Below the pieces are notes generated by a model. It saw nothing but the letters and a program-made list of their open reading frames with translations. It had not been told where the DNA came from and did not search any database. This document shows positions 750 to 20,829 of a stretch of 64,000 bases of DNA, one piece after another. Position 1 is the first letter of the stretch, and each line of letters opens with the position of its first letter. The stretch comes from Actinospineispora acaciae DSM 45401. GTDB lineage: Bacteria; Actinomycetota; Actinomycetes; Mycobacteriales; Pseudonocardiaceae. The position numbers and the translations under genes were made by a program. The DNA is taken from the NCBI RefSeq assembly GCF_000620785.1, contig NZ_JIAI01000001.1, positions 930,001-994,000 on the forward strand, in the 5' to 3' direction.

Positions 750-2114
750 CTACCTCGTGCTGGCCAGCGTGTCCGAGGTCAGGTCCACGTCCTTCGTCTC
801 CGGCCCGCGCAGGGCGCCGACCAGCAGCAACAGGCCGCCGATCACGTAGACCACCGCCGTGGTGTACCGCTGTGGCATGAACTCCGCGAGCAGGCCCTCG
901 TAGAACGCGTAGAACGAGGCGACGATCAACGCCATGCTGTAGCCGACGCCGTACCCGGTAGCCCGCAGGTCGGTGCGGAACCGTTCGGACAGGTACGAGG
1001 CGGTGCTGCCGAAACAGCAGATCGCGGACAGGAACAGCCCGGCCGTGAGCAGCACCCGGCCCACGAACGAGGTGGTCAGGTTGGACACCAGCACGCAGTA
1101 GAACGCCGGCGCCACGGTGGCCGCCACGATCCCGCACAGGGACAGGAACCGGCGCCGGCCGATCCGCTGGCTCAGCGCGCCGCACAGCGGGTACGCGGCG
1201 ATCAGCACCACTTCGGCGATCACCAGCACCGCGGTGGCGCTCTCCGGCGTGATGTCGTCCAGTGCGCGCAGCGCGACGGGGTACGACGCCGAGGTGGCGT
1301 TGCCGCACAGCCAGGCCCCGGACATCAGGATGAGCACCTGGCGCAGGCTGCGCGCGGAGTCGCCGCGCAGCAGCTGCGCCAGCGGGCTCGGGCCCTTGCG
1401 CGCGCCGCGCTCGCGCCAGGCCGGGGACTCGTCCACGGTCCGCTGGTAGTAGTAGGCGAACGCGAACGTGACGATCGCGCCGATCAGCACCGGGATGCGC
1501 CAGCCCCACTGCTGGTAGGCGCCCTGCTCGGACAGCCGCGAGTTCAGCGCCTGCACCGAGAACGTGACCGCCGAGACCGTGCAGAACGCGATCGGGAAGC
1601 CCATCGTGATCAGGCCCCCGTACAGCCCGCGCTTGGGTTTCGGGCTGCTCTCCATGGCCAGCGGCACCGCCCCGGTGTACTGGCCGCCCAGGAACACGCC
1701 GGTCACCAGGCGCAGCAGGATCAGCCCGATCATGGCGCCGATGCCGAGCAGCTGGTAGCCGGGCATCAGCGCGAGCGCCAGCGTGCCGACGCCGCTGCCG
1801 TACATCGCGATCAGGGTGGCCCGGCGCCGGCCCAGCGAGTCGGCGATCGAGCCGAAGATCACCGCGCCGAGCGGGCGGCCGAGCAGGGTGGCCGCGAAGA
1901 CCATGCCGTTGAGCAGCGCGACGGTGCCCGGGGACAGCGACGAGGAGGGCATGAAGTACGACAGCGCCGGCCCGACCGCGACGACCGGCAGGTAGATGTC
2001 GTAGCTGTCCACCGCGAAGCCCATCGAGGCGCCTCGGGTGGCCCGCCGGCCCTGCGCGATGGACGGCGTGGGCGGCGACGACGGCTCGGACGACGGCACT
2101 GTCGTTGGGTTCAT
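750..2114 (-). CDS. MFS transporter, metabolite:H+ symporter (MHS-like)
   Basis: 454-residue integral membrane permease, the usual length for a 12-helix MFS protein. The loop 2-3 motif A is seen as GRPLGAVIFGSIADSLGRRR at about residues 79-98, and WGWRIPVLIGAI follows helix 6, as is typical of the MHS (citrate/alpha-ketoglutarate/shikimate) branch. It should import an organic acid or related metabolite with protons. The start ATG at 2114 gives a normal short cytoplasmic N-terminus; the open frame continues upstream into the hydrolase gene but that reading is out of frame with the hydrolase product. It ends 2 bases before the hydrolase stop region, so the two are in one operon. The substrate is not determined by sequence. 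Confidence 0.88.
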   Translation of the reverse strand: MNPTTVPSSEPSSPPTPSIAQGRRATRGASMGFAVDSYDIYLPVVAVGPALSYFMPSSSLSPGTVALLNGMVFAATLLGRPLGAVIFGSIADSLGRRRATLIAMYGSGVGTLALALMPGYQLLGIGAMIGLILLRLVTGVFLGGQYTGAVPLAMESSPKPKRGLYGGLITMGFPIAFCTVSAVTFSVQALNSRLSEQGAYQQWGWRIPVLIGAIVTFAFAYYYQRTVDESPAWRERGARKGPSPLAQLLRGDSARSLRQVLILMSGAWLCGNATSASYPVALRALDDITPESATAVLVIAEVVLIAAYPLCGALSQRIGRRRFLSLCGIVAATVAPAFYCVLVSNLTTSFVGRVLLTAGLFLSAICCFGSTASYLSERFRTDLRATGYGVGYSMALIVASFYAFYEGLLAEFMPQRYTTAVVYVIGGLLLLVGALRGPETKDVDLTSDTLASTR

Positions 2115-2116
2115 GG

Positions 2117-2953
2117 TCAGCCTCCGAGTGGCGTGGGCGAGGTGGGGAGTTCGGACAGCCAGCCGTGCAGCACGGCGGGGAAATCGACGATCTCTTCCAT
2201 CGGGTAGTGGCCGATCCCGTCGAGCACGGTGAACCGGGCGCCGGTGATCCGGTCGGCGGTGGCCTCGGCGGACGCCGGGTTCATCCAGAAGTCGTCGGCG
2301 CCGACCAGCAGGTGCACCGGGCAGGTGATGCCGGTGAGCCGGTCGCGCAGGTCGTGGCGGTTCCAGGCGATGAGGTCCGAGGTGGACACCTGGGGGTCCT
2401 CGCGCCGGTGCATCTCGGCGATGACCTCCCGGCGCGCGGCGTCGACGGACGCGCCGCAGGCCAGCAGCGTCCCGTAGTAGGTGCGGTCGCTGCGGCTGGG
2501 CGACACCGCGTCCTCCATCGCGCGCAGCAGGCCGGCGTCGGACTGGCCGTCGGTGTTGTGGGCGTCCGCGGCCATGGTCACCACGCCGGCCAGCTCGCCC
2601 GGTATCCGGGTGGCGATGTCCAGCGCGATCTTGCCGCCGATCGAGCAGCCCACGACGTACGGCCGCGTCACGGACAGCGTGCGCAGCAGGTCCACGCAGA
2701 AGGCGGCGTAGACACCCAGGTCGGTGACCGGGCCGTCGGCCGGCAGCTCGGAGCGGCCGTGCCCCGGCAGGTCCGGGACGATCACCTGGTAGCCGAGGTC
2801 GGCCAGGCCGGCGATCGAGTGCCGCCACTGCACGCCGCTCTGGCCGGCGGAGTGGATGCACAACAGCGGCCGGCCCTGCCCGTAGGTCTCCACGAACGCC
2901 ATCCGGCCGTTCACGGTGAGGTAGCGGGAGGTTCCGATTACCTGGGCTTTCAT
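2117..2953 (-). CDS. Alpha/beta hydrolase
   Basis: 278-residue alpha/beta-fold hydrolase. The nucleophile elbow GCSIGG puts the catalytic Ser at 104, the acid is in GADDFW (Asp about 220-221) and the base in GIGHYP (His about 249); the oxyanion segment is CIHSAGQSG. This complete triad suggests a carboxylester, lactone or C-C bond hydrolase, similar in layout to meta-cleavage-product and enol-lactone hydrolases. The start ATG overlaps the stop of the upstream MaoC/SCP2-like gene by four bases (ATGA), which indicates translational coupling. Its partners (hydratase-like protein, permease, and the divergent CoA ligase) suggest it opens or trims a substrate before or after CoA activation. Confidence 0.85.
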   Translation of the reverse strand: MKAQVIGTSRYLTVNGRMAFVETYGQGRPLLCIHSAGQSGVQWRHSIAGLADLGYQVIVPDLPGHGRSELPADGPVTDLGVYAAFCVDLLRTLSVTRPYVVGCSIGGKIALDIATRIPGELAGVVTMAADAHNTDGQSDAGLLRAMEDAVSPSRSDRTYYGTLLACGASVDAARREVIAEMHRREDPQVSTSDLIAWNRHDLRDRLTGITCPVHLLVGADDFWMNPASAEATADRITGARFTVLDGIGHYPMEEIVDFPAVLHGWLSELPTSPTPLGG

Positions 2954-3804
2954 TGGCTCCGCTCCTCGGCCACCAGCTCGCGGGCCGCGTCGATCAACAG
3001 GTGCACCGGCTTGGTCAGCTGCAGGTAGACGTAGGCGTCGCCCTGCACCCGGAACTGGCCGCGCAGGGCGCGGACCATCAGGTCGTTGCGCGGGCCGGTG
3101 AACAGCTCGGTCCAGAACAGCTCGTCGCCGCGCAGGGTGAAGCTGGCGCCGCGCGGGGTGCGGGCGGCCACCTCGATGATCTTGCCCCGGTAGATCCGGA
3201 ACTGGACCTCGTCGCGCTCGGTGGCCAGCCCGATGGCGCCGTCGAACAGCTGGGTCGCGCCGGCGAACTCCGTGTTCGCGGCCAGCCGGTCGGCCACCGC
3301 CCGCGCCCAGCGCGGCGTCAACGGCGCGTTGCCGGCGGGATCCTGGTCCGAGGGTTGCCCCTGCCTGGCCCTGACCAGGAAGGCGCTGGTGCCGCGCTGG
3401 AGCAGGTGCCCCTGGTCGTCGCGCAGCTCGATCTGCCGGTTCACCACGCCCTCGGCGCCGTCGGAGCGCCGCCGGCACCCGGTCACGACGGTGCTGAACC
3501 GCAGCTTCATGCCCACCGTGACCGGCGCGAGGTAGCGCCAGTTCGTGTCCAGCAGCGCGATCGCGCTGTCCTCCACCACGCCGCTGTCGAAGAGCAGCCC
3601 GAAATAGCGGGCTATCCCCCACGGGCCGTGCGCGATCGGCCCGTCGAACCGTTCGTCCGCTCCCCCGTCGGCGGTGTGCATCGGATGCCGGTCGCCGGAG
3701 ACCCTGGCGAAGTCGGTGAGGTCGTCCGACGACACCGCGAACTCGGCGCTCTCGAACCGTTGCCCCAGGTAGAAATCTTCGAAGAAGAGTGAATTCGACA
3801 CCAC
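2950..3804 (-). CDS. MaoC-like hot-dog protein with SCP2-like C-terminal domain
   Basis: 284 residues if started at GTG 3804; a GAGG ribosome-binding site lies about 10 bases upstream, whereas the longer open frame to 3996 would run through the operator region. Residues about 5-150 look like a MaoC/FAS1-type hot-dog domain: FEDFYLGQRF, then FARVSGDRHPMH, which carries the Asp and His of hydratase-2 dehydratases, and GPIAHGPWGIARYF. Residues about 185-280 resemble an SCP2/sterol-carrier or ketosteroid-isomerase-like lipid-binding fold (DEVQFRIYRGKIIEV, FTLRGDELFW). It probably hydrates or dehydrates an enoyl-type (CoA) intermediate. It is the first gene of the leftward operon. The second-domain assignment is my inference. 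Confidence 0.7.
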   Translation of the reverse strand: MVSNSLFFEDFYLGQRFESAEFAVSSDDLTDFARVSGDRHPMHTADGGADERFDGPIAHGPWGIARYFGLLFDSGVVEDSAIALLDTNWRYLAPVTVGMKLRFSTVVTGCRRRSDGAEGVVNRQIELRDDQGHLLQRGTSAFLVRARQGQPSDQDPAGNAPLTPRWARAVADRLAANTEFAGATQLFDGAIGLATERDEVQFRIYRGKIIEVAARTPRGASFTLRGDELFWTELFTGPRNDLMVRALRGQFRVQGDAYVYLQLTKPVHLLIDAARELVAEERSQ

Positions 3805-3980: not shown

Positions 3981-4601
3981 ATGGACGATCGTTCACCGAA
4001 GGCTCGCGACAGCGCGCTGGTATCCCGGGACCGGCTGTATATCGGCGCGTTGGAGGCGTTCGCCGAGCGAGGTTTTCACGGCGCCTCGATGCGGGACATC
4101 GCGAGCCGGTCCGGAATGGCGCTGGGCAACCTGTACAACCACACGTCGTCCAAGGCCGAGCTGCTGGTCCAACTGCTCAAGCGCGCCACCTACGACCATC
4201 TGGCCGACACCGAGTGGGCCGTTTCGGCGGCCGGCCCGGATCCCCGCGACCAGTTCGTCGCCGCCGTGCGGGCCTATGTCCGTTTCATCCTGGACCGGCC
4301 GCTCGAATCGATGATCGCGCACAGTGAGGTCCGCTATCTCGGCGAGGACGACCGCAAGCGGCTGGTGATCGCCAGGGACCGGCTGGAGGCGATCTTCGGC
4401 AACATCGTGCACGAGGGCGTCCGCACCGGCGTGTTCACCACCCCGCACCCGGATGAGGTCACCAAGGCTGTGCTGCCGATGTGCTCGGGCATCGCGAACT
4501 GGTACCGGCCGGACGGCCCGCTGAGCAAGGACGAGGTCTGCGAGCGGTTCGCCACCTACGCGGCCGCCGTGGTGCAGCCGGTCGCGAGGAGCGCGTCATG
4601 A
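3981..4601 (+). CDS. TetR/AcrR family regulator
   Basis: 206 residues from ATG 3981. The N-terminal HTH reads ALEAFAERGFHGASMRDIA followed by SGMALGNLYNHTSSKAELL (about residues 20-60), a clear TetR DNA-binding domain; the C-terminal helical domain is about 140 residues and includes a TetR_C-like ligand pocket of unknown specificity. The open frame begins 45 bases earlier, but that would place the start inside the promoter. The stop overlaps the ATG of the ligase fusion (ATGA), so it is co-transcribed with the genes it likely controls. It probably represses both divergent operons through the 3872 palindrome until an acyl-CoA or pathway intermediate binds. Confidence 0.88.
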   Translation: MDDRSPKARDSALVSRDRLYIGALEAFAERGFHGASMRDIASRSGMALGNLYNHTSSKAELLVQLLKRATYDHLADTEWAVSAAGPDPRDQFVAAVRAYVRFILDRPLESMIAHSEVRYLGEDDRKRLVIARDRLEAIFGNIVHEGVRTGVFTTPHPDEVTKAVLPMCSGIANWYRPDGPLSKDEVCERFATYAAAVVQPVARSAS

Positions 4602-7015
4602 CCACCCTCTACGCCTCACTGGCGCGCACCGCCGCCGAGTGGCCCGAGCGGCCGGCGCTGGTCGACTGCGCCGAGCCGGCCAATGGCGCCACCCAGACCT
4701 ACCGTGAGCTGCTCGCCGACGTCGACGCCCTGGCCGGCGGGCTGCGCGAGCTCGGGTTCGACCGGGGTGACGCGATAGCGGTCTGGCTGCCGAACTGCCT
4801 GCCGTGGCCCCGGCTGCTGTTCGCCGCCGCCAAGCTCGGCGTGCTGGTGGTGCCGCTGAACACCCGCTACCGGCCCAAGGAGCTGTACCACCTGCTCGCC
4901 ACCAGCCAGGCGAAGGCGCTGGTCTACGCCCCGAAGTTCGAGACAGTCGACTTCGGCTCGCGGCTGGAGGAGGTGTGGGCCGCCGGCGGCGAGCTGCCCC
5001 TGCGCTGGCTGGTCACCGTGGGCCAGGACAAGCGGGCCGAGCGGGCCGGCGCGCCCGACTGGCTGACCACCGTGCCCCTCACCGAGCTGCACCGGTCCGC
5101 GACGCCCGAGCTGGCCGAGCCCGGCGACCCGCTGGTCGTGTTCGGCACCTCCGGGACCACCTCCGCGCCGAAGCTCGCGGTCCACACCCACGCCTCCATC
5201 GGCGCGCACATGCCCGCCGTGGCGCGGGCGATCGGCCTGGGCCCGGACCAGACCCAGCTGTGCGTGCTGCCGCTGGGCGGCGTGTTCGGGTTCGTCCCGT
5301 TCGTGGCAGGCATCCTCGGCGGCACGCCGTCGGTGCTGTTGCCGGTCTTCGACTCCGCGCGGGTCCGCGACGCGCTCGCCCGGCACCGCGCCACGTTCAT
5401 GACCTGCGCCGAAGGCCCGCTGCGCGAGCTGCTCGCGGACCCGTCGCTGGCCGAGGCGGGCGGGCACCTGGCGAAGACGGTCACCGGCGGGGTCGCGATC
5501 GACGACATCGTCGCGGCGGCCGCCCCGCACGGCATCTCGGCGATGAACGTCTACGGCTCCTCCGAGGTGCTGGCCTACGCCGCGACCTGGTCGTTCGACG
5601 CGTCGCCCGAGCAGCGCACGGTCCCGGGCGGCCGGCTGGTGGCGCCCGGCTTCCAGGTGCGCGTGATGTCCGCCGAGGACCCGTCGCGTCCCTCGGCCGA
5701 GGGCGAGTACGGCGAGCTGCAGTTCCGGGGGCCGACGGTGTTCGCCGGCTACTTGGCCAACGAGGCCGCCACCGCGAAGGCGTTCACCTCGGACGGCTGG
5801 TACCGCAGCGGGGACTTCGGCCTGGAGCTGCCCGACGAGGGTGCCGGCCAGGCCTTCCAGTTCCGGTCACGGCTCGACGACAAGCTGCGGCTGCGCGGCT
5901 ACCTGGTGAACCCCTCGGACATCGAGACGGCGCTGCACGAGCACCCGGCGGTCGACATGGCGCAGCTGGTCGGCGTGCGCGACCAGCACACCGGTGACCA
6001 CCTGCCCGTCGCGTTCGTCCGGCTCGTTCCCGGCGGAAGCGCGACCGCGGACGAGCTGCTGGAGCACTGCCGGGCCCGGCTGGCCAGCTTCAAGGTGCCG
6101 GATCTTGTGGAGATCGTCGCCGCGTTCCCTACCACCCCGAGCGCGAACGGTGACAAGGTTCGTAAGGAAGAGCTACGGAGAAAGGCGGCGACCCTCTTGA
6201 CCGAGAAGGCCCAGACGAGCAAGCCCGCGCCGGAGGTCCGTTCGGACATCGCGCTGGCCACCACCGACCGGGTGTCGGTGCACGGCATCGACCTGCCCAA
6301 CGACATCCTCGGCAAGGTCAACGTGGGCGACTTTGCCTACCTGGAGCTGTTCCGGCGGCTGCCGTCGCAGTCCGAGTCGGTGGTGTTCAACGCGCTCGTG
6401 GTGGCGCTCATCGAGCACGGCCTGACGCCGAACGCGCTGGCCAGCAGGCTGACCTACCAGGGCGCGCCGGAGTCGCTGCAGGGCGCGGTGGCGGCCGGGC
6501 TGCTCGGGCTGGGCAACCGGTTCGTCGGCACCATGGAGGGCGCCGCGCGGCTGTGCCAGGAGCACGCCGACGAGCCCGGCTGGCGCGACGACCCCGCGCA
6601 GCTCGACCAGCTCGCGGAGAAGATCGTGGCCGAGCACGCCGAAGCCGGCCGGTTCGTCCCCGGGATCGGGCACGGCCTGCACAAGCCCGTCGACCCCAGG
6701 GCCGAGCGGCTGTTCGAGATCGCCAACGAGCAGGGCCTCGACCCGGCGAACGAGAAGCTGATCCGGGCCATCTCGGCGGCCGCGCAGCGGCGCAGCGGCA
6801 AGGTGCTTCCGGTCAACGTCACCGGCGCGATCGGCGCCATCGCCAGCACCCTCGGCGTGCCGTGGGCCGTCGTCAGAGGCCTGGGCGTGATGGCGCGCGC
6901 GATCGGCCTGGTCGGGCACCTCCTGGAGGAGCGCGAGCGGCCGCTGGCCCTGAACGTCTGGGCGGAGGCCGAGCGCAAGTCCATGGCGCACCTGCGGCAC
7001 CCCGAACGGCCGTGA
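4598..7015 (+). CDS. Acyl-CoA synthetase fused to citryl-CoA lyase-like (citrate synthase superfamily) domain
   Basis: 805-residue single open frame. Residues about 1-535 are a complete AMP-forming acyl-CoA synthetase: phosphate loop FGTSGTTSAPK (about 183), NVYGSSEVLAYA (about 317), YRSGDFGLE (about 402), hinge SRLDDKLRLRGYLVNPSDIE and the C-terminal catalytic Lys segment SANGDKVRKEEL (about 515). Residues about 546-805 match the citryl-CoA lyase module of ATP-citrate lyase and related stand-alone proteins: LIEHGLTPNAL, GLGNRFVGTMEGAA, VPGIGHGLHKPVDPR (the GxGH His), VNVTGAIGAIAS and IGLVGHLLEER. The Asp of the NVDG motif in ATP-citrate lyase is Thr here. The predicted chemistry is CoA ligation followed by a Claisen-type cleavage or condensation; the substrate is unknown. 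A TTG codon in frame at 6197 behind GGAGAAAGG could also yield the second domain alone. Confidence 0.85.
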   Translation: MTTLYASLARTAAEWPERPALVDCAEPANGATQTYRELLADVDALAGGLRELGFDRGDAIAVWLPNCLPWPRLLFAAAKLGVLVVPLNTRYRPKELYHLLATSQAKALVYAPKFETVDFGSRLEEVWAAGGELPLRWLVTVGQDKRAERAGAPDWLTTVPLTELHRSATPELAEPGDPLVVFGTSGTTSAPKLAVHTHASIGAHMPAVARAIGLGPDQTQLCVLPLGGVFGFVPFVAGILGGTPSVLLPVFDSARVRDALARHRATFMTCAEGPLRELLADPSLAEAGGHLAKTVTGGVAIDDIVAAAAPHGISAMNVYGSSEVLAYAATWSFDASPEQRTVPGGRLVAPGFQVRVMSAEDPSRPSAEGEYGELQFRGPTVFAGYLANEAATAKAFTSDGWYRSGDFGLELPDEGAGQAFQFRSRLDDKLRLRGYLVNPSDIETALHEHPAVDMAQLVGVRDQHTGDHLPVAFVRLVPGGSATADELLEHCRARLASFKVPDLVEIVAAFPTTPSANGDKVRKEELRRKAATLLTEKAQTSKPAPEVRSDIALATTDRVSVHGIDLPNDILGKVNVGDFAYLELFRRLPSQSESVVFNALVVALIEHGLTPNALASRLTYQGAPESLQGAVAAGLLGLGNRFVGTMEGAARLCQEHADEPGWRDDPAQLDQLAEKIVAEHAEAGRFVPGIGHGLHKPVDPRAERLFEIANEQGLDPANEKLIRAISAAAQRRSGKVLPVNVTGAIGAIASTLGVPWAVVRGLGVMARAIGLVGHLLEERERPLALNVWAEAERKSMAHLRHPERP

Positions 7016-8145
7016 CGGCTTCAGGCTGGCGGCGCACGGTCGCCTCGGTGTTCGAAGGGGTGGACACCGGGCTGCGGATCCAGGACGTCGACGTCTCGGC
7101 GCCCGGGCCGGACGAGGTGCTGCTCACCGTCGCGGCCTGCGGCGCCTGCCACAGCGACGTGCACAAGCTGGAGGGCCACGGCACGGTGGCGCCGCCGTGC
7201 GTGCTCGGCCACGAGCTGTCCGGCACGCTCGCCGAGGTGGGCGCCTCGGTCACCGGGCTGCGGCCCGGCGACCGGGTGGCGTGCTCGTTCATGGTGCCGT
7301 GCGGGGGGTGTGCGGCGTGCACTGCCGGCGCGCAGGACGACTGCGGCCCGTTCCGCTCCGCCATGCAGCGCGACGGGCTGCGGTTCGACGGCTCGTACCG
7401 GTACCAGCTCCCCGACGGCACCGGGCTGCGGGCCTCCGGGGTCGGCGGGCTGTCCCGCCAGGTCGTGCTGCCGGCCACCGCGGTGTTCGCCCTCCCCGAC
7501 GGGTGGCCGCGGCGGTGGCCGCTGGCGGACGTCGCGGTGCTCGGCTGCGCGGGGCTGACCGCGTACGGCGCCGTGCACCGGGCCGCGCGCGGCACCGAGG
7601 GCGAGCGGGTGGTGGTGCTCGGCGCCGGCGGGGTCGGGCTGTGCGTGGTCGCGCTGGCGGCCCACGACAAGGCGTCCGGTGTGGTGGCCGTCGACCTGCG
7701 CGCGGACGCCCTGGGCGCCGCCCGAGACTTCGGCGCGGTCGCCGCGCTGGACGGCACCGCGCCCGACCTGGCCGACTCGGTGCGAGACGCGCTGGGCGGC
7801 GACCCGGACGTCGTGTTCGACACCGTCGGCACCCCGGGCAGCCTGTCGCAGGCGCAGCGGCTGCTCGCGGTCGGCGGCCGCGTCGTGGTCACCGGCCTCG
7901 GCGGCACCGGCGGCCCGGGCCTGATCGAGGGGCTGCCGGCGTTCGTGCGCCGCAAGCTGTCGATCATCGGCTCGTACGCGGGGCGGCCGGACGAGGACAT
8001 GCCCCGGTTGCTGGCCGCGGTGCGGGCCGGCGCGCTGGACCCGTCCCGGCTCATCTCCGCCCGCTACCCGTTCGAGGACGCCGCCCAGGCCTACGCGGAC
8101 GTCGCGGCCGGGAAGATCGTCGGGAGGGCGCTCATCGAGTTCTGA
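7012..8145 (+). CDS. Zinc-dependent alcohol dehydrogenase (MDR family)
   Basis: 377-residue medium-chain dehydrogenase. The catalytic zinc ligands are in AACGACHSD (Cys about 43) and LGHELSG (His/Glu about 67-68); the structural zinc lobe is CGGCAACTAGAQDDC. The nucleotide-binding motif is GAGGVGL. It should oxidise an alcohol or reduce an aldehyde with NAD(P). The GTG start at 7012 overlaps the stop of the ligase fusion (GTGA), so it is the third gene of the TetR operon and likely acts on a free or CoA-derived alcohol/aldehyde in the same pathway. Its 3' end overlaps the convergent LacI gene by 14 bases. Confidence 0.88.
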   Translation: MTASGWRRTVASVFEGVDTGLRIQDVDVSAPGPDEVLLTVAACGACHSDVHKLEGHGTVAPPCVLGHELSGTLAEVGASVTGLRPGDRVACSFMVPCGGCAACTAGAQDDCGPFRSAMQRDGLRFDGSYRYQLPDGTGLRASGVGGLSRQVVLPATAVFALPDGWPRRWPLADVAVLGCAGLTAYGAVHRAARGTEGERVVVLGAGGVGLCVVALAAHDKASGVVAVDLRADALGAARDFGAVAALDGTAPDLADSVRDALGGDPDVVFDTVGTPGSLSQAQRLLAVGGRVVVTGLGGTGGPGLIEGLPAFVRRKLSIIGSYAGRPDEDMPRLLAAVRAGALDPSRLISARYPFEDAAQAYADVAAGKIVGRALIEF

Positions 8146-10387: not shown

Positions 10388-11137
10388 ATGCCGAGCCCGG
10401 TGGTCCACTGGATCCCCGTGAGGTCACAGGTCCAGGAGCGACGGAGCGCGGCGCCGGTCGTCGCCGCCGAGCCGAGGCGTCTTCCGTCGGTCGTGCTCAA
10501 GTTCGTCATGGCGGTCAGCGGCGCCGCGATGCTGCTGTTCCTGCTGGGACACATGCTCGGCAACCTGAAGATCTTTCTCGGGGCCGAGGCGCTGAACGCG
10601 TACGGCGCGTGGCTGCGCACGCTGCTGGAGCCGGCGGTGCCCTACGAAGGCACCCTGTGGCTGCTCCGGCTCGGGCTGGTCGCGGCGGTGCTGGCGCACA
10701 TCTGGTCGGCGGTGCTGCTGACGCTGCGCGCGCGGCGGGCACGGCCGGTCAGGTACGCGGTGCGCAACAAGGTGCCGGGCAGCTACGCCGCGCGCACCAT
10801 GCGCTGGGGCGGCGTGATCATCGCGCTGTTCGTGGTCTACCACCTGCTCGACCTGACCACCGGCACGCTGAACCCGCACGGCCAGCACCTGCAGGTGTAC
10901 CAGAACCTGGAGGCCGACTTCGCCCCCGGGCGCTGGTACGTCACGGTGTTCTACGTCCTCGCCGTGGTGGCCGTCGGGTTCCACGTGCGGCACGGCCTGT
11001 GGAGCGCGCTGCAGACCCTGGGCTGGTCCAACGCCGCCCGGCAGCGCTCGCTCAAGCGCGTGTCCACCGGGTTCGCCGCCGTCCTCACCGCCGGCTTCCT
11101 CGTTGTCCCGCTCGCCGTCACCTTCGGATTGGTCTGA
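10388..11137 (+). CDS. sdhC: Succinate dehydrogenase cytochrome b subunit (b558-type)
   Basis: 249-residue membrane anchor with five predicted helices. Haem-ligand candidate histidines lie in [30 protein letters not shown] and [12 protein letters not shown], matching the single-subunit dihaem cytochrome b of Bacillus/actinobacterial type B succinate dehydrogenases; accordingly no separate sdhD is present. It carries electrons from the flavoprotein/iron-sulfur subunits to menaquinone. The start is not secure: ATG 10388 is used, and GTG 10418 in the same frame is an alternative; neither has a strong ribosome-binding site. sdhA follows after 2 bases. Confidence 0.88.
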
Positions 11138-11139
11138 GC

Positions 11140-13079
<1,940 letters not shown>

Positions 13080-13083
<4 letters not shown>

Positions 13084-13826
13084 GACTCACCCTGCGGATC
13101 TGGCGGCAGGCAGCCGGCGACGAGAAGGGCCGGCTAAGGACCTACCAGGTGGACGACGCGTCCGAGGACATGTCGTTCCTGGAGCTGATCGACGTGCTCA
13201 ACGAGACGCTGATCCTGCGCGGCGAGGAGCCGGTGGCGTTCGACCACGACTGCCGGGAGGGCATCTGCGGGGCGTGCAGCATGGTCATCGACGGCGTGCC
13301 GCACGGGCCGGAGAAGGCCACCACGACGTGCCAGCTGCACCTGCGGTCGTTCTCCGACGGCGACACCATCACCGTGGAGCCGTTCCGCGCCGGCGGGTTC
13401 CCGGTGGTCAAGGACCTGGTGGTGGACCGCTCGGCGTTCGACCGGATCATCGCGGCCGGCGGCTACATCACCGCGCCCACCGGGGCCGCCCCGGACGCGC
13501 ACGCCATCCTGGTGCCCAAGGCGGCCGCCGACCGCTCCTTCGCGGCGGCCAACTGCATCGGCTGCGGCGCCTGCGTGGCCGCCTGCCCGAACGGCTCCGC
13601 CTCGCTGTTCCTGGGCGCCAAGATCACCCACCTCGGCGAGCTGCCGCAGGGGCAGCCCGAGCGCGACGAGCGAGTGGTGAAGATGGTCGCCGCGCACGAC
13701 GAGAACGGCTTCGGCGGCTGCACCAACACCGGGGCGTGCACCGAGGTCTGCCCCAAGGAGATCCCGCTGGACGTGATCTCCCAGCTCAACCACGACTACC
13801 TGGCCGCGCGGCGCCGCTCGAAGTAG
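13080..13826 (+). CDS. sdhB: Succinate dehydrogenase/fumarate reductase iron-sulfur subunit
   Basis: 248 residues from GTG 13080. The N-terminal plant-type ferredoxin half has [12 protein letters not shown] plus a downstream Cys for the [2Fe-2S] cluster; the C-terminal half has [15 protein letters not shown] and [19 protein letters not shown] for the [4Fe-4S] and [3Fe-4S] clusters. It transfers electrons from SdhA to the cytochrome b subunit. Its last 31 bases overlap the convergent SDR gene 3' end, an unusually long tail-to-tail overlap for a core gene. Confidence 0.95.
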
Positions 13827-15962: not shown

Positions 15963-16701
15963 CGGCCACCACCAGCGCCAGCGGGCCGGGAGCCGCTTTG
16001 ATCGCGCCCAGCGCGCTGATCACGATCGACCGGGACAACGCGCCGGCCAGCCGGGCGTCGCGCTCGCGGTAGGCGCGCACCAGCCGGCGGTGGTCCTGCA
16101 GCGACAGCTCCGGGCGGCCGGGCTGGGACAGGCTGTGGTGGCGCAGCCGCAGCACGGCGACGCCCAGCGAGTCCAGGGTGCGCTTGAGCGTGAGGTCGCC
16201 CGCGACGTCGCCGGCGCGCTCGTGGAACGTCACGTTGTGCCAGAAGGACCCGGTCACATCGCCGGCGCGCACCGAGGCGTCCATCCGCGCGACCACGTCG
16301 TCGAGGGCCGCGAGCTGCGCGGCGTCGGCGCGCTCGGCGACCCGCTCGGACACCATCGCGTACAGCTCCCCGCGCAGCCGGTAGACCTCCTCCACCCTGG
16401 CCAGCTCCAGCACCGCCACCCGGGGCCGGCGCCGGGCCGGGATGGTGACCAGGCCCTCCTTCTCCAGCACCATCAGCGCCTCGCGCACCGGGGTGCGGCT
16501 GCTCTCGAAGCGCTTGGCCAACTCCACCGAGTTCAGGTCGGCCCCCGGGGCGAGGCGGCCCTCGATGATGTCCCGCGCCACCTCGGCGACGATCACCCCG
16601 ACCCGCGAGTCGGCCCGGTCGTCCACCCCCAGCAACCGGCCGAGCACGGCGGCGCCGGCCGGTGCCAGGCCGGCCAGGCTGCGTTCGCTTTCTGTCGACA
16701 C
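15955..16701 (-). CDS. GntR family regulator (FadR/FCD subfamily)
   Basis: 248 residues. The winged HTH reads VELAKRFESSRTPVREALMVLEKEGL (about residues 58-83) and the C-terminal helical FCD domain carries the usual metal-binding pattern (HNVTFHERAGD, later QDHRRLVRAY). It should repress its own operon (SDR, cupin, SDR) and the divergent decarboxylase-like gene until a small acid binds. The palindrome TGTCGACA covers codons 1-3 and a second copy lies upstream at 16754. It is the first gene of the leftward operon. Confidence 0.87.
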   Translation of the reverse strand: MSTESERSLAGLAPAGAAVLGRLLGVDDRADSRVGVIVAEVARDIIEGRLAPGADLNSVELAKRFESSRTPVREALMVLEKEGLVTIPARRRPRVAVLELARVEEVYRLRGELYAMVSERVAERADAAQLAALDDVVARMDASVRAGDVTGSFWHNVTFHERAGDVAGDLTLKRTLDSLGVAVLRLRHHSLSQPGRPELSLQDHRRLVRAYRERDARLAGALSRSIVISALGAIKAAPGPLALVVADA

Positions 16702-16765
16702 ATTGCGAAGTATGCCGCACTAGGTTTGACTTCTCTACGGGAGATGCTGTGAGAGTGTCGACACT
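16693..16765. promoter_or_regulatory. Two GntR operators built on TGTCGACA
   Basis: TGTCGACA at 16693-16700 (over the GntR start codon) and the perfect 12-base palindrome AGTGTCGACACT at 16754-16765 (just before the decarboxylase-like gene). Their centres are 63 bases apart, about six helical turns, which would suit looping or joint control of the two divergent promoters. The same core appears at the second FCD-GntR locus (62558). Confidence 0.6.
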
Positions 16766-16775
16766 TAGGAGTGCG

Positions 16776-17147
16776 ATGAACGCCGCCGACCGTTACCGCG
16801 AGGGCCTCGAGGTCCGACGTTCCGTGCTCGGGTCCGAGTACGTGGCCAACGCCCTCGCCGACGCGGAGAACCCGTCCGCGCTGCAGCGGATGGTCACCGA
16901 GTTCGGCTGGGGGTTCGTCTGGGCGCGCGACGAGCTGCCCCGGCAGACGCGCAGCCTGCTCACCGTCGCGCTGCTGACCGCGCTGAACCGGCCGCACGAG
17001 CTGCTCGCCCATGTCCGGGGCGCCGTGCGCAACGGCTGCACGCGCGAACAGATCGAGGAGGCCGTGCTGCACTGCGCGGCCTACTGCGGCCTGCCCGCCG
17101 CCATCGACGCCATGCGGGTGGTCGAGCAGGCGCTCGCGGAGTCGTGA
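16776..17147 (+). CDS. Carboxymuconolactone decarboxylase family protein
   Basis: 123 residues from ATG 16776, with AGGAG (16767-16771) upstream; the longer frame was rejected because it runs through the operators. The single CMD domain reads LPRQTRSLLTVALLTALNRPHELLAHVRGAVRNGCTREQIEE (not all contiguous residues conserved) with HCAAYCG, which carries the active-site His/Cys region. The length and the Tyr-Cys pattern are like 4-carboxymuconolactone decarboxylase (PcaC), which acts in the beta-ketoadipate route, but many CMD proteins have other roles. It is divergent from the GntR operon and likely co-regulated. Confidence 0.8.
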   Translation: MNAADRYREGLEVRRSVLGSEYVANALADAENPSALQRMVTEFGWGFVWARDELPRQTRSLLTVALLTALNRPHELLAHVRGAVRNGCTREQIEEAVLHCAAYCGLPAAIDAMRVVEQALAES

Positions 17148-17165
17148 CGCCGACTACTCCGAGGC

Positions 17166-17813
17166 CTACTCAGAGGCCAGCGCCGCGGCGGCGGCCCGGC
17201 GGATGTGCTCGCCCCACAGCGTGCTGGCGCCGGTCGCGTCGCCGGCCACGATCCGCTCCAGCACCTGCTCGATCTCGGCGATGCTCTCCGCCGGGCGGCC
17301 CGGGCGGGACAGCGAGCGGGCGCGCAGCCGGTACAGCCTGCTCTGCAGCAGCGCGGCCTGGTCGCGCAGCACGTCGTTGCCGGCGCCCGCGTAGAGCACC
17401 CGGTAGAACTCGCGCTTGGTCTCCAGCATGACCACCACCTCGCTGGAGCTGTGCTCCTCGCGCAGCCGGGCGATGGTGTCGGCCAGCCGTTCGACGGTGG
17501 CGGCGTCGGCGCGCTGCACGAACAGGCGCACCGCGAAGCACTCCAGCGCCTCGCGCACCTCGTAGACGGCGCGCGCCTCGTCGTCGGTCATCGCCGTCAC
17601 GATCGGCCCCTTGTGCGGGGTGACGGTGATGAACCCCTCCGCCTCGAGCTGCCGGTACGCCTCCCGCAGGGTGTTGCGGGACACGTCCAGCTCCTCGCGC
17701 AGCTCGCGCTCGATGAGCCGCTGGCCGGGCGCGAGCCCGCCGCTGATGATCTCGGCGCGGATGGCGTCGACGACCTGCTCGCGCACCGGCGCCAGCACGC
17801 GGGTGACCTTCAT
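17166..17813 (-). CDS. GntR family regulator (FCD subfamily)
   Basis: 215 residues. The HTH reads IERELREELDVSRNTLREAYRQLEAEGF (about residues 33-60), followed by an FCD effector domain. It is divergent from the aldehyde dehydrogenase-flavoprotein operon with a 124-base gap that holds a strong inverted repeat (17864-17896), its probable operator. The expected ligand is the organic acid handled by that operon. It is tail-to-tail with the decarboxylase-like gene. Confidence 0.87.
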   Translation of the reverse strand: MKVTRVLAPVREQVVDAIRAEIISGGLAPGQRLIERELREELDVSRNTLREAYRQLEAEGFITVTPHKGPIVTAMTDDEARAVYEVREALECFAVRLFVQRADAATVERLADTIARLREEHSSSEVVVMLETKREFYRVLYAGAGNDVLRDQAALLQSRLYRLRARSLSRPGRPAESIAEIEQVLERIVAGDATGASTLWGEHIRRAAAAALASE

Positions 17814-17937: not shown

Positions 17938-19434
17938 ATGTCGAACCCGCTCCCCCGGCACTACGGACTGTTCATCGACAACGAGTTCGTCGAGCCGGCC
18001 GGGGACGACCTGCTGGACGTCGACAACCCGGCGACCGGCGAGGTGTGGGCGCGGGTGCCGGACGCCTCGGCCGAGGACGTGGATCGGGCGGTGCGCAGCG
18101 CGCGGCGGGCGTTCAGCGAGGGCGACTGGCCCGGGTACCGCGCGGCGGACCGGGCGAAGCTGCTCATCCGCATCGGCGAGGCCGTCGCCGAGCACGCCGA
18201 GGAGCTGGCCGACCTGCAGGTGCGGGAGAACGGCAAGCTGCACCGCGAGATGTACGGCCAGGCCAAGCTGATGCCGGAGTACTTCAACTACTACGCCGGC
18301 CTGGCCCAGCAGCCCCTCGGGCACACCAACCCGCTGCACCTGTCCGACATGATCAACTACACCGTGCGGGAGCCGCTCGGGGTGGTCGCCGCGATCACGC
18401 CGTGGAACTCGCCGCTGCTGCTGCTGGCTTGGAAGCTCGGGCCGGCGCTGGCGGCCGGGTGCACGGTGGTGGCCAAGCCGTCCGAGGTCACGCCGGTGTC
18501 CACGCTGCGGTTCGCCGAGATCGCCGCCGGGTGCGGGCTGCCGCCGGGGGTGCTCAACGTGGTCACCGGCCTCGGCCAGCCCAGCGGCGCCGCGCTGACC
18601 GGCCACCCCGACGTGGACAAGATCGCGTTCACCGGCTCGACGGCCACCGGGCAGGCCATCGCCTCGGTCGCCGGCCGCACGCTCAAGCGCGTCTCGCTGG
18701 AGCTGGGTGGCAAGTCGCCGAACATCGTGTTCGAGGACGCGGACCTGGACAGCGCGGTGAACGGCCTGGTCGCGGGCATCTTCGGGGCCAGCGGGCAGAC
18801 CTGCATGGCCGGCTCGCGCATCCTCGTGCAGGACGGCGTCTACGACCGGGTGGTGGACGAGCTGGCGCGGCGTGCCGAGGCCATCGTGGTCGGCGACCCG
18901 ACCGACGCGGCCAGCCAGATGGGCACCATCGCCAGCCGCGCGCAGCTGGAGAAGGTGCTGCACTACATCCAGGTGGCCAAGGACGACGGCGCGCGGCTGG
19001 CCGCCGGCGGCGAACCGGCCACCGTGCCCGGCCTGCCGAACGGGCTGTTCGTCCGGCCCACGGTGTTCGCCGACGTCACGAACGACATGAAGATCGCGCG
19101 CGAGGAGGTGTTCGGGCCGATCGCGTCGGTGCTGCGGTTCGACAGCGAGGACGACGCGGTGCGCATCGCGAACGACACCGAGTTCGGGCTGGCCGCCGGG
19201 GTGTGGACGCAGAACGTGCAGCGCGCGCACCGGGTGTCCGGACGGCTGCGCGCCGGCACGGTGTGGATCAACAACTATCGCAAGTCCGGCTACTCCACGC
19301 CGTTCGGTGGCTACAAGCAGAGCGGCATCGGACGGGAGAACGGCCCCGACGCGCTGCGCGAGTACACCGAGGAGAAGAGCGTCTGGGTGGACACCGGCCA
19401 GGGCGTCAAGGACCCGTTCAACCCGAGGGCCTGA
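17938..19434 (+). CDS. Aldehyde dehydrogenase (NAD(P)+)
   Basis: 498 residues, the standard ALDH length. The general base Glu is in SLELGGKSPNIVF (about 255) and the catalytic Cys in SGQTCMAGSR (about 289); FTGSTATGQ precedes, and the cofactor segment PWNSPLLLLAWKLGPAL is present. It oxidises an aldehyde to an acid. It is the first gene of the operon under the divergent GntR and is followed after 6 bases by the flavoprotein gene. The substrate is probably a semialdehyde of a polycarboxylic acid if the flavoprotein assignment is right, which is inference. Confidence 0.92.
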   Translation: MSNPLPRHYGLFIDNEFVEPAGDDLLDVDNPATGEVWARVPDASAEDVDRAVRSARRAFSEGDWPGYRAADRAKLLIRIGEAVAEHAEELADLQVRENGKLHREMYGQAKLMPEYFNYYAGLAQQPLGHTNPLHLSDMINYTVREPLGVVAAITPWNSPLLLLAWKLGPALAAGCTVVAKPSEVTPVSTLRFAEIAAGCGLPPGVLNVVTGLGQPSGAALTGHPDVDKIAFTGSTATGQAIASVAGRTLKRVSLELGGKSPNIVFEDADLDSAVNGLVAGIFGASGQTCMAGSRILVQDGVYDRVVDELARRAEAIVVGDPTDAASQMGTIASRAQLEKVLHYIQVAKDDGARLAAGGEPATVPGLPNGLFVRPTVFADVTNDMKIAREEVFGPIASVLRFDSEDDAVRIANDTEFGLAAGVWTQNVQRAHRVSGRLRAGTVWINNYRKSGYSTPFGGYKQSGIGRENGPDALREYTEEKSVWVDTGQGVKDPFNPRA

Positions 19435-19440
19435 GCCGAC

Positions 19441-20829
19441 ATGTCCACCGACGTGACAGACGTGCTCGTCATCGGCTCCGGGATCGCCGGGCTGTCCGCC
19501 GCCGTGGCCGCCGCCGAGGAGCTGGGCGGCGCCGGCTCGGTGGTCGTGCTGGACCGCGCGCCCCGGGCCGAGGCCGGCGGCAACACCCGCTGGACGGCCG
19601 CCTACTTCCGGCTCGACGACGTCTACGAGCCGGGGCCGAACTTCGTCGACGACGTGATCGGCTTCTCCGACGGCCGCACGCCGCGTTGGTACGTGGACGC
19701 GCTGCTGGAGCGGCTGCCGGAGACCATGGAGTGGATCCAGGGCCACGGCGCCCGGTTCCGCCGGATGCCCACGTACTTCATCAACAGCACCCGCCCCCGG
19801 CTGCAGCCGGTCGGTGGCGGCGAGGGCCTGCTGTCCGCGCTGCGGCCGGCCGCCGAGCGACTGGGCGTCACCTTCCGCTACGAGACCACCGCGCACCGGC
19901 TGGTCACCGGCGACGGGGCGGTCACCGGGGTCGAGGTCACCGGCCCGGACGGCGGCCGTGCCACGCTGCCGGCGCGGACGGTGGTGATCGCCTCCGGTGG
20001 TTTCGAAGGCGACACCGCGTACCTGGGTGAGCAGTTGGGCGCGGACGCCGGCACGCTGCTGCCGATCGCGCCGAGCGTGCGGCTCAACCGCGGCGAGGGC
20101 ATCCGGATGGCGCTCGCCGCCGGGGCCGCCCGCGCCGGGCAGTGGGACACCTTCCACGCCGAGCCGGTGGACCCGCGCAGCAAGGACGCCGAGGCGCTGG
20201 TCATGGTGTTCCCGTACGGGATTCTGGTGGACCGGGGCGGCGAGCGGTTCATCGACGAGGCCCGGGGCACCGTCGACGAGACCTACGAGAGCACGGCCCG
20301 GGCCATCTGGTCGCGCGACGGCGGCACCGCCTGGTTCATCACCGACCAGTCGCTGCGCCGGGTGGACGACCACGAGCGCGGCCTGCTGACCGGCGTGCCG
20401 CCGGTACGGGCGGACACCGTCTCCGAACTGGCCACCGCACTCGACCTGCCGCCCGAGGTGCTGGCCGACACGATCGACCGGTTCAACGCCGCCACGCCGA
20501 CCGTCGGGTCGTTCGACTGGCGCCGCCCGGACGGGCTGGCCACCGTCGGCCTGGAGCCGGCCAAGAGCAACTGGGCGTTGCCGCTGGTCTCGCCGCCGTT
20601 CCTGGCCTACCCGGTGGCCTGCTCGATCGTGTTCACCTTCGGCGGGCTGGCCACGGACGTGCGCGCCCGGGTGGTCCGCGAGGACGGCGGCGCGATCGAC
20701 GGCCTGTACGCCGCCGGCGAGTGCACCGGCCTCTACCACGGCAAGTACCCGGGCGGGACGTCCGTGCTGCGCGGCATGGTGTACGGCCGGGTCGCCGGCA
20801 CCGACGCCGCCCGGAGCTCCCATGCCTGA
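19441..20829 (+). CDS. FAD-dependent oxidoreductase, tricarballylate dehydrogenase/fumarate reductase-like
   Basis: 462 residues. The dinucleotide-binding motif is VLVIGSGIAGLSAAV and the family signature GGNTRWTAAYFRL follows, as in TcuA-like tricarballylate dehydrogenases and other FAD-binding-2 proteins; the C-terminal FAD region is GLYAAGECTGLYHGKYPGG. It should dehydrogenate a carboxylic acid, removing two hydrogens across a C-C bond. It lies 6 bases after the aldehyde dehydrogenase. Directly downstream are the ruins of an MHS-type permease, the class that imports tricarballylate in tcu loci; no TcuB-like electron carrier is present. Confidence 0.8.
   Translation: MSTDVTDVLVIGSGIAGLSAAVAAAEELGGAGSVVVLDRAPRAEAGGNTRWTAAYFRLDDVYEPGPNFVDDVIGFSDGRTPRWYVDALLERLPETMEWIQGHGARFRRMPTYFINSTRPRLQPVGGGEGLLSALRPAAERLGVTFRYETTAHRLVTGDGAVTGVEVTGPDGGRATLPARTVVIASGGFEGDTAYLGEQLGADAGTLLPIAPSVRLNRGEGIRMALAAGAARAGQWDTFHAEPVDPRSKDAEALVMVFPYGILVDRGGERFIDEARGTVDETYESTARAIWSRDGGTAWFITDQSLRRVDDHERGLLTGVPPVRADTVSELATALDLPPEVLADTIDRFNAATPTVGSFDWRRPDGLATVGLEPAKSNWALPLVSPPFLAYPVACSIVFTFGGLATDVRARVVREDGGAIDGLYAAGECTGLYHGKYPGGTSVLRGMVYGRVAGTDAARSSHA

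Follow-up and report, generated by a model that had tools for sequence, protein, structure and literature searches.

A rare fusion of an AMP-forming acyl-CoA synthetase and a citryl-CoA-lyase-type domain in Actinospineispora acaciae

Introduction

ATP-citrate lyase (ACLY) joins a ligase to a C-terminal citrate-synthase-fold domain of the citryl-CoA lyase (CCL) type. The ligase is ATP-grasp/succinyl-CoA-synthetase-like with a phosphohistidine, and the CCL module carries an aspartate in an NVDG motif; the need for this Asp in cleavage is debated (PMC10115795). A second point of reference is the Hydrogenobacter citryl-CoA lyase (pdb 6hxp; family model NF004868, PRK06224.1-5), which is not fused to a ligase. 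In the itaconate/methylsuccinate cluster (Ict-Ich-Ccl-Mcd-Msi), an acid is activated, hydrated and cleaved to acetyl-CoA by a lyase that is a CitE-type TIM barrel; the CoA transferase of this pathway is presumably of the CaiB type. Tricarballylate is utilised by TcuABC, which is not known to include an acyl-CoA synthetase–CCL pair.

The gene examined here, P0001, lies in a window of 64,000 nucleotides from A. acaciae DSM 45401 (NZ_JIAI01000001.1, positions 930,001 to 994,000); all coordinates are those of the window. Like ACLY, P0001 encodes a ligase followed by a CCL-type domain, but the ligase is of the AMP-forming ANL type, and the NVDG Asp is replaced by Thr. P0001 is not a member of the ATP-citrate lyase family. 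The pathway proposed below shares its logic with the itaconate/methylsuccinate route, but combines a citrate-synthase-fold lyase with an ATP-driven ligase.

The fused gene and its domains

P0001 (805 amino acids, plus strand) extends from the ATG at 4598 to the TGA at 7015 without an internal stop. Its start codon overlaps the stop codon of a TetR gene (ATGA), and its own stop overlaps the GTG start of an alcohol dehydrogenase gene (GTGA). Residues 1-538 (4598..6211) constitute an AMP-forming acyl-CoA synthetase (ACS), and residues 541-805 (6218..7012) the CCL-type domain. The Pfam scan gave AMP-binding (PF00501, residues 9-386, E 2.4e-58), AMP-binding_C (PF13193, residues 442-516, E 3.5e-15) and Citrate_synt (PF00285, residues 584-780, E 1.7e-17), all above cut-off, and no other family, ATP-grasp/succinyl-CoA-synthetase-like ligases included.

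With an AMP-binding domain, a C-terminal domain and the core motifs, the ACS part has the features of ANL AMP-forming synthetases. The ANL-type motifs lie at residues 183, 319, 400, 423 and 517, which we take to have their usual roles. The top NCBIfam model for this part, PRK06164 acyl-CoA synthetase, reaches 440.7 bits, under its cut-off of 677. The citryl-CoA lyase subfamily model NF004868 matches residues 545-799 with 307 bits against a cut-off of 193. The Hydrogenobacter enzyme, similar in fold and length, is the top match of the CCL domain both by sequence (E 4.7e-30) and by structure; a Foldseek search with a model of the domain (mean pLDDT 83) ranked 6hxp first and the CCL modules of ATP-citrate lyase next. 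A single-sequence fold of the whole protein had a pLDDT of 39.8 and was not usable. The first-pass annotation, which had read a complete ANL synthetase and a complete CCL domain in one frame, the ligase being unrelated to that of ACLY, is thus confirmed on both points.

Putative catalytic residues of the CCL domain

In the CCL alignment, the NVDG-Asp column is occupied in P0001 by Thr742 (codon 6821..6823, plus strand), as had been proposed from the first reading. An acidic residue is absent at this column in 118 of the 126 rows; these form a single clade (support 100/100) that includes the P0001 domain. The change from Asp to Thr is a trait of the clade, and the idea that Thr is peculiar to the fusion was dropped. 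The earlier statement that both His regions remain holds only in part: the columns of H607 and H692 are invariant, whereas the column that we take, by analogy with citrate synthase, to be that of His274 contains Phe642. Phe is also found there in Chlorobium ATP-citrate lyase, while 6hxp has His. The columns of R701 and R767 are invariant (126/126 rows); presumably these residues bind carboxylate, as in citrate synthase.

The ACLY variant D1026A, altered in the same column as Thr742, stalls at citryl-CoA according to PMC10115795, so that absence of the Asp could mean absence of cleavage. A literature search found no activity described for any member of the Asp-less clade.

Paired relatives and gene neighbourhoods

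Adjacent ACS and CCL were found in 15 fetched loci, and the pair occurs in both Actinomycetota and Pseudomonadota. The P0001 CCL domain falls into a clade of ten rows (support 100/98), nine of them ACS-paired. On the starred branches of the ligase tree, the paired label must change at least three times, and partners are swapped between the CCL and ligase trees (L046; L047, L052 and L053).

P0001 is preceded by the TetR-family regulator (3981..4601, plus strand; PF00440, PF17932; 59.7% identity to its Actinomadura macra counterpart) and followed by a zinc alcohol dehydrogenase (ADH; 7012..8145, plus strand; 61.6% to that of the same A. macra locus, L090). A divergent operon contains a MaoC-like protein, a putative hydratase (2950..3804, minus strand; PF01575, E 9.5e-13; family alignment A3). 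Also on the minus strand are an alpha/beta hydrolase (2117..2953), with a distant PcaD-type lactonase match and all NCBIfam models under their cut-offs, and an MFS metabolite/H+ symporter (750..2057, start approximate), whose matches, tricarballylate TcuC included, are all under cut-off. No CitE-type lyase gene was found among the six window neighbour proteins scanned.

The neighbours of close relatives are MFS, alpha/beta hydrolase, MaoC, ADH, aldehyde dehydrogenase (ALDH) and tricarballylate-dehydrogenase-like genes. An MFS-hydrolase-MaoC-TetR-ACS-CCL cluster with ADH, ALDH and TcuA is present at L090, L091 and L093, and in rearranged form at L096. TcuA, and in Salinicola also TcuB, score above their NCBIfam cut-offs in related clusters. 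The TcuABC genes are not adjacent to P0001, and neither an ALDH nor a TcuA gene adjoins it; ALDH and TcuA-like genes lie 11-14 kb away and are 47% and 32% identical to their L090 counterparts. All six core loci, that of P0001 included, have a MaoC-family gene. No MaoC gene of the window kind turned up around the pairs L038, L039, L040, L041, L046, L047, L052, L053 and L056; L038 has an annotated enoyl-CoA hydratase, and L046 comprises ACS, CCL, a small MaoC-like ORF, MFS, ADH and ALDH (identified by eye, with BLAST agreeing for ADH and ALDH).

Among 80 CCL loci at large, the neighbours include MmgE/PrpD (50 loci), acyl-CoA dehydrogenase (39), enoyl-CoA hydratase (37), CaiB CoA-transferase (35), HpcH/HpaI (CitE-type) lyase (31), thiolase (19) and the itaconyl-CoA-hydratase family (Ich-type; 17). 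Many unfused CCL genes of the Asp-less clade adjoin itaconate/methylsuccinate-type genes; PMC12290011 gives these gene types for that pathway. Since a CitE-type gene is also present in 31 of the 80, CCL there is not simply a citramalyl-CoA lyase, and two tested CitE genes scored 153 and 140 bits, under the RipC cut-off of 375. The window MaoC was considered as an itaconyl-CoA hydratase; comparison with that family, with shallow profiles, gave no support (hhalign probability 4%, E 0.0098). In Cupriavidus N-1, CCL stands with CoA transferase and isopropylmalate-dehydratase-type genes, a set that could make and activate a hydroxy-acid.

Proposed function

The chances are about even that P0001 is a catabolic ligase and C–C lyase for branched or polycarboxylic acyl-CoA, resembling ATP-citrate lyase in action. 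It would have arisen by fusion of two enzymes that belong to a conserved operon of catabolic function. Its N-terminal part would adenylate a carboxylic acid with ATP and load it onto CoA; likely substrates would be substituted succinates or itaconate-, aconitate- or citramalate-like acids. The presence of MaoC at the core loci suggests that the acid activated by the ligase may be unsaturated and may be hydrated by another enzyme before CCL acts, and that the fused domains may therefore not catalyse consecutive steps: the MaoC enzyme would hydrate the enoyl-CoA between the ligase and lyase reactions. The C-terminal lyase, of the citrate-synthase fold and without the usual Asp, may then cleave a CoA thioester from this pathway into acetyl-CoA, or another acyl-CoA, and an oxo-acid, ketone or aldehyde. 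ADH, ALDH and TcuA-like enzymes could prepare or finish the carbon skeleton.

A true one-protein analogue of ATP-citrate lyase, with direct activation of a hydroxy-acid by the ligase and immediate cleavage of the thioester by its own CCL domain, seems rather unlikely. Its logic would be that of ACLY; the proximity of the fold to citryl-CoA lyase and the ACLY modules, the nine pairs near which the window-kind MaoC went undetected, and the Cupriavidus N-1 gene set are all consistent with it, but the enoyl-CoA intermediate suggested by MaoC at the six core loci and the missing NVDG Asp argue against it.

Clearly less probable is a CCL domain that does not cleave, but binds CoA esters and organises or regulates the ligase, or has another activity such as that of a thioesterase. 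Loss of the Asp throughout the clade would fit this, as would the D1026A data and an allosteric model for the citrate-synthase-homology part of ACLY, both from PMC10115795. Against it stand the invariant His and Arg columns, the retention of the domain beside C5-dicarboxylate-type genes, and the finding that an ACS match lies immediately upstream of CCL in just 5 of the 80 loci, so that the domain mostly works without such a neighbouring ligase.

An alkylcitrate-synthase-like role, in which the domain condenses and builds a carbon chain, is highly improbable with importers and catabolic-type enzymes as neighbours, even though the citrate synthase fold also serves condensing enzymes.

Occurrence of the fusion and integrity of the reading frame

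Recurrence of the fusion next to TetR in another actinomycete, which the first-pass annotation had said would count in its favour, was observed in Actinomadura macra (58% identity, with a junction unlike that of P0001). Not all homologues are two separate genes: the pair is split in 13 of the 15 fetched loci, and that of A. macra is fused. Otherwise the two genes of the pair are neighbours, and a fusion such as P0001 is rare. No fused full-length match beyond P0001 was found among 120 relatives at 1e-60 (eight candidates scored per genome). Apart from P0001, none of 394 class genomes had a fusion at 1e-100, a search in which the listed rows carry two scored candidates per genome, so that some fusions may have been missed; among 65 genomes of the A. 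macra genus (1e-90), A. macra alone was fused. In the plasmid collection, 56 records match, and in five of them a match at one location spans 80% or more of the query, always split into two pieces; three of these five were fetched, along with others. A direct scan of genome contigs with P0001 returned no relative, and the CCL alignment was used in its place. A literature search found no description of an ACS-CCL fusion or of an ACS and CCL pair.

At the junction (residues 532-546, 6191..6235, plus strand), both the stop and the CCL start of split relatives are missing, and P0001 is 8-9 codons shorter than Actinomadura. ATG and GTG codons are absent from codon 515 up to where the CCL part begins; the sole candidate is a TTG (6197..6199, plus strand), a possible internal CCL start by sequence, with a weak GGAGAAAGG upstream. 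The earliest GTGs, at 6272 and 6278, lie about 19 codons into the CCL part. GC3 is high in a single frame across both domains, dipping to 0.86 in the 70-codon block that contains the junction. The assembly is rated 7.34% contaminated, and the contig extends to base 994,000 or beyond. It is barely credible that the open frame is owed solely to a mistake in sequencing or assembly: full-length fused matches are absent from 119 other relatives (1e-60) and 393 other class genomes (1e-100), but the joint loss of stop, start and codons, the one-frame GC3 pattern and a second fusion with a different junction all speak against it.

Implications

Tentatively, AMP-driven counterparts of ATP-citrate lyase may have arisen more than once, with different AMP-forming ligases paired or, in the two known fusions, fused with citrate-synthase-fold lyases of one clade that would cleave although they lack the Asp held essential in ACLY. 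In that case, the fused protein would couple hydrolysis of ATP to AMP with breakage of a C–C bond in a branched or polycarboxylic substrate. Many genes named citryl-CoA lyase have no NVDG Asp, and their substrates may be different ones. Should the ACS-CCL pair indeed cleave its thioester, its design would be ATP-citrate-lyase-like by convergence, and it would offer a natural way to test whether cleavage needs the NVDG Asp.

The fused gene and its frequency

The 805-residue product (P0001) of the open reading frame at 4598-7015 on the forward strand joins an AMP-forming acyl-CoA synthetase (ACS) to a citryl-CoA-lyase-type (CCL) domain. In a Pfam scan of this frame, AMP-binding, AMP-binding_C and Citrate_synt all score above their own cut-offs; the ACS model ends at residue 538 and the CCL model begins at 545, so that the two almost abut. 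The C-terminal part belongs to the NCBIfam citryl-CoA lyase subfamily NF004868 (307 bits; cut-off 193), and among the best 25 of 108 NCBIfam matches to P0001 no ligase model exceeds its cut-off. In a single frame, GC3 is high across both domains, dipping to 0.86 in the junction block. In ten split relatives (L038, L039, L040, L046, L047, L056, L091, L092, L093, L096), a stop and a start separate or overlap the ACS and CCL parts; both are missing at that point in the window, whose junction is 8-9 codons shorter than that of Actinomadura.

Among 80 CCL loci (the best 80 of 510 relatives, from named genomes), one holds both parts in a single frame, namely Actinomadura macra L090, whose fused protein matches the window protein at 58% identity over residues 3-799. 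In its sister, A. rubrisoli L091, a TGA stands at the corresponding position; apart from that the two sisters are similar, sharing 711 of 810 aligned residues. The A. macra gene retains an internal ATG, and its junction is therefore unlike that of the window; two independent fusions and a single fusion altered later both fit this difference. Searches of 120 relatives at 1e-60 and of 394 genomes of the class at 1e-100 gave no further full-length fused match, and in 65 genomes of A. macra's genus (1e-90) the matches came from A. macra (fused) and A. rubrisoli (split) alone. The fused form makes up two of the 15 fetched loci with adjacent ACS and CCL genes on the same strand (window, L038, L039, L040, L041, L046, L047, L052, L053, L056, L090, L091, L092, L093, L096). 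At L041 (Caballeronia NK8 pNK84), the annotation breaks up both the ligase gene and the aldehyde dehydrogenase gene beside the CCL, as though they were frameshifted.

Active site and fold of the CCL domain

The active-site alignment has 126 rows (some identical), 124 of them CCL-like and two from citrate synthase of the window's own genome, which may represent a single gene present in both of the loci sampled. At the position of the NVDG Asp of ATP-citrate lyase (ACLY), Thr742 in P0001, 98 rows have Thr, 17 Ala, six Asp, two Gly, two Glu (the citrate synthase rows) and one Ser, in a sample drawn mostly with a Thr-type query, so that these figures do not reflect natural proportions. The column that we take, by analogy with citrate synthase, to be that of His274 (other columns are named likewise) holds Phe in 113 rows and His in eight; those of H607, H692, R701 and R767 are invariant (126/126). 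The 118 rows in which the Asp column has no acidic residue form one group (support 100/100). NF004868 labels proteins lacking the Asp as citryl-CoA lyases, a name of activity that may be wrong for them.

ACLY D1026 occupies the same column. According to PMC10115795, the D1026A variant accumulates citryl-CoA and forms no acetyl-CoA, and its authors favour an allosteric role for that domain. Set beside the Asp-less column, this implies that the window domain is either a lyase that works without the Asp, perhaps on another substrate, or no lyase. By its predicted fold (pLDDT 83, from a 34-row alignment), the domain is nearest to citryl-CoA lyase 6hxp (TM 0.73), followed by the CCL modules of ACLY.

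The same genome carries a second Asp-less (Thr) CCL on contig C13 (L055 9030-9920). No ACS match was found near it; a TcuA gene (16209-17729; 590 bits, above cut-off) lies about 6.4 kb downstream.

Gene neighbourhood

A TetR gene (3981-4601) overlaps the start of the fused gene by ATGA and a zinc ADH gene (7012-8145) overlaps its end by GTGA, so that the three look translationally coupled. MaoC, alpha/beta hydrolase and MFS genes lie on the opposite strand. In L090, L091 and L093, TcuA, ADH, ALDH, MFS, alpha/beta hydrolase and MaoC occupy one strand and TetR, ACS and CCL the other; Salinicola L096 has ACS, CCL, ADH, ALDH, MaoC, hydrolase and MFS in a single run, with TcuB and TcuA opposite. 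TcuA exceeds the NF006130 cut-off in all three loci tested (L090, L093, L096), as does TcuB of L096 that of TIGR02484. MaoC of the window's kind is present in all six core loci (window, L090, L091, L092, L093, L096); none was detected close to the remaining nine ACS-CCL pairs.

The window ADH is 61.6% identical to that of L090. Some 11-14 kb from the fused gene lie an ALDH gene (17938-19434; 47% identity to L090) and a TcuA-like flavoprotein gene (19441-20829; 32%), the latter scoring 356 bits, slightly below the tricarballylate dehydrogenase cut-off of 369; this adjoining pair (17938-20829) may be part of the same pathway or of a sister one. Also nearby (10388-13826) is an operon that, judged by eye on its translations, is of the succinate dehydrogenase/fumarate reductase type. 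Elsewhere, an Ala-type ACS-CCL pair on a Rhodococcus rhodochrous BX2 plasmid (L040 7606-13469) adjoins enol-lactonase and enolase-like genes in an annotated aromatic ring-cleavage cluster.

Pairing of ligase and CCL

The CCL tree has 128 rows, 121 of them different, and places the window within a ten-row clade (100/98), nine rows of which are ACS-paired; its tie to L090 and L091 is weaker (96/52). In the ligase tree (14 paired rows and 27 hand-picked unpaired ones, 41 in all), the window groups with the same two loci (97/89), and the paired label must change three times or more to fit the starred branches; one gain and two losses would also account for three changes. With some long branches, CCLs of the window's clade adjoin distant ligases in L047, L052 and L053, and a ligase of the window's group adjoins a distant CCL in L046. 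As the trees disagree, partners have probably been exchanged between loci, which argues for a common pathway.

In the portions of the open papers searched (including PMC2864759, PMC10115795 and PMC12290011), neither an ACS-CCL fusion nor such a gene pair is described. The combination and the tie of the Asp-less clade to AMP-forming ligases are new; the component families were already known.

Proposed function

Judged from architecture, pairing, context and residues, the ligase part would most likely make an acyl-CoA, spending ATP to AMP; MaoC would hydrate an enoyl-CoA; and the CCL domain would free acetyl-CoA through retro-aldol or retro-Claisen cleavage. Enzymes of the TcuA, ADH and ALDH types would work before or after. 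That P0001 alone forms an analogue of ATP-citrate lyase, as the first-pass annotation proposed, is doubtful, mainly because a hydration is presumed to come between the two fused activities.

Neighbours within 8.5 kb of the CCL were counted at the best 80 of 510 relatives (some contigs end sooner) as BLAST matches to one representative per family, with no background rate: MmgE/PrpD at 50 loci, acyl-CoA dehydrogenase at 39, enoyl-CoA hydratase at 37, CaiB-type CoA transferase at 35, SDR and HpcH/HpaI lyase at 31 each, two-domain MaoC at 21, thiolase at 19, and ACS and the itaconyl-CoA-hydratase family (matching solved 8khg, E 4e-91) at 17 each. Paraburkholderia L113 has the order SDR, thiolase, enoyl-CoA hydratase, MaoC, CCL, itaconyl-CoA-hydratase type, acyl-CoA dehydrogenase, CaiB, PrpD, CitE type. 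Where both are present, the CCL is no replacement for the CitE-type lyase; the two CitE-type neighbours tested fall below the RipC cut-off.

The order acyl-CoA dehydrogenase, CaiB, MmgE/PrpD, HpcH/HpaI, Asp-less CCL recurs at 18 of these best 80 loci (L123, L133, L135-L137, L140, L141, L150, L151, L153, L156, L158, L159, L163-L166, L169), which puts C-C lyase genes of two unrelated kinds next to each other. In Cupriavidus necator N-1 pBB2 (L044 7989-12031), an Asp-less CCL, a CaiB CoA-transferase and both isopropylmalate-dehydratase-type subunits follow in succession, possibly a set for hydroxy-acid activation and cleavage.

The itaconate/methylsuccinate pathway, as outlined in PMC12290011, comprises a CoA transferase, a hydratase, (S)-citramalyl-CoA lyase, an acyl-CoA dehydrogenase and an MmgE/PrpD isomerase. 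Genes of these types occur among the CCL neighbours, and the CCL clade is therefore tied to branched dicarboxylates.
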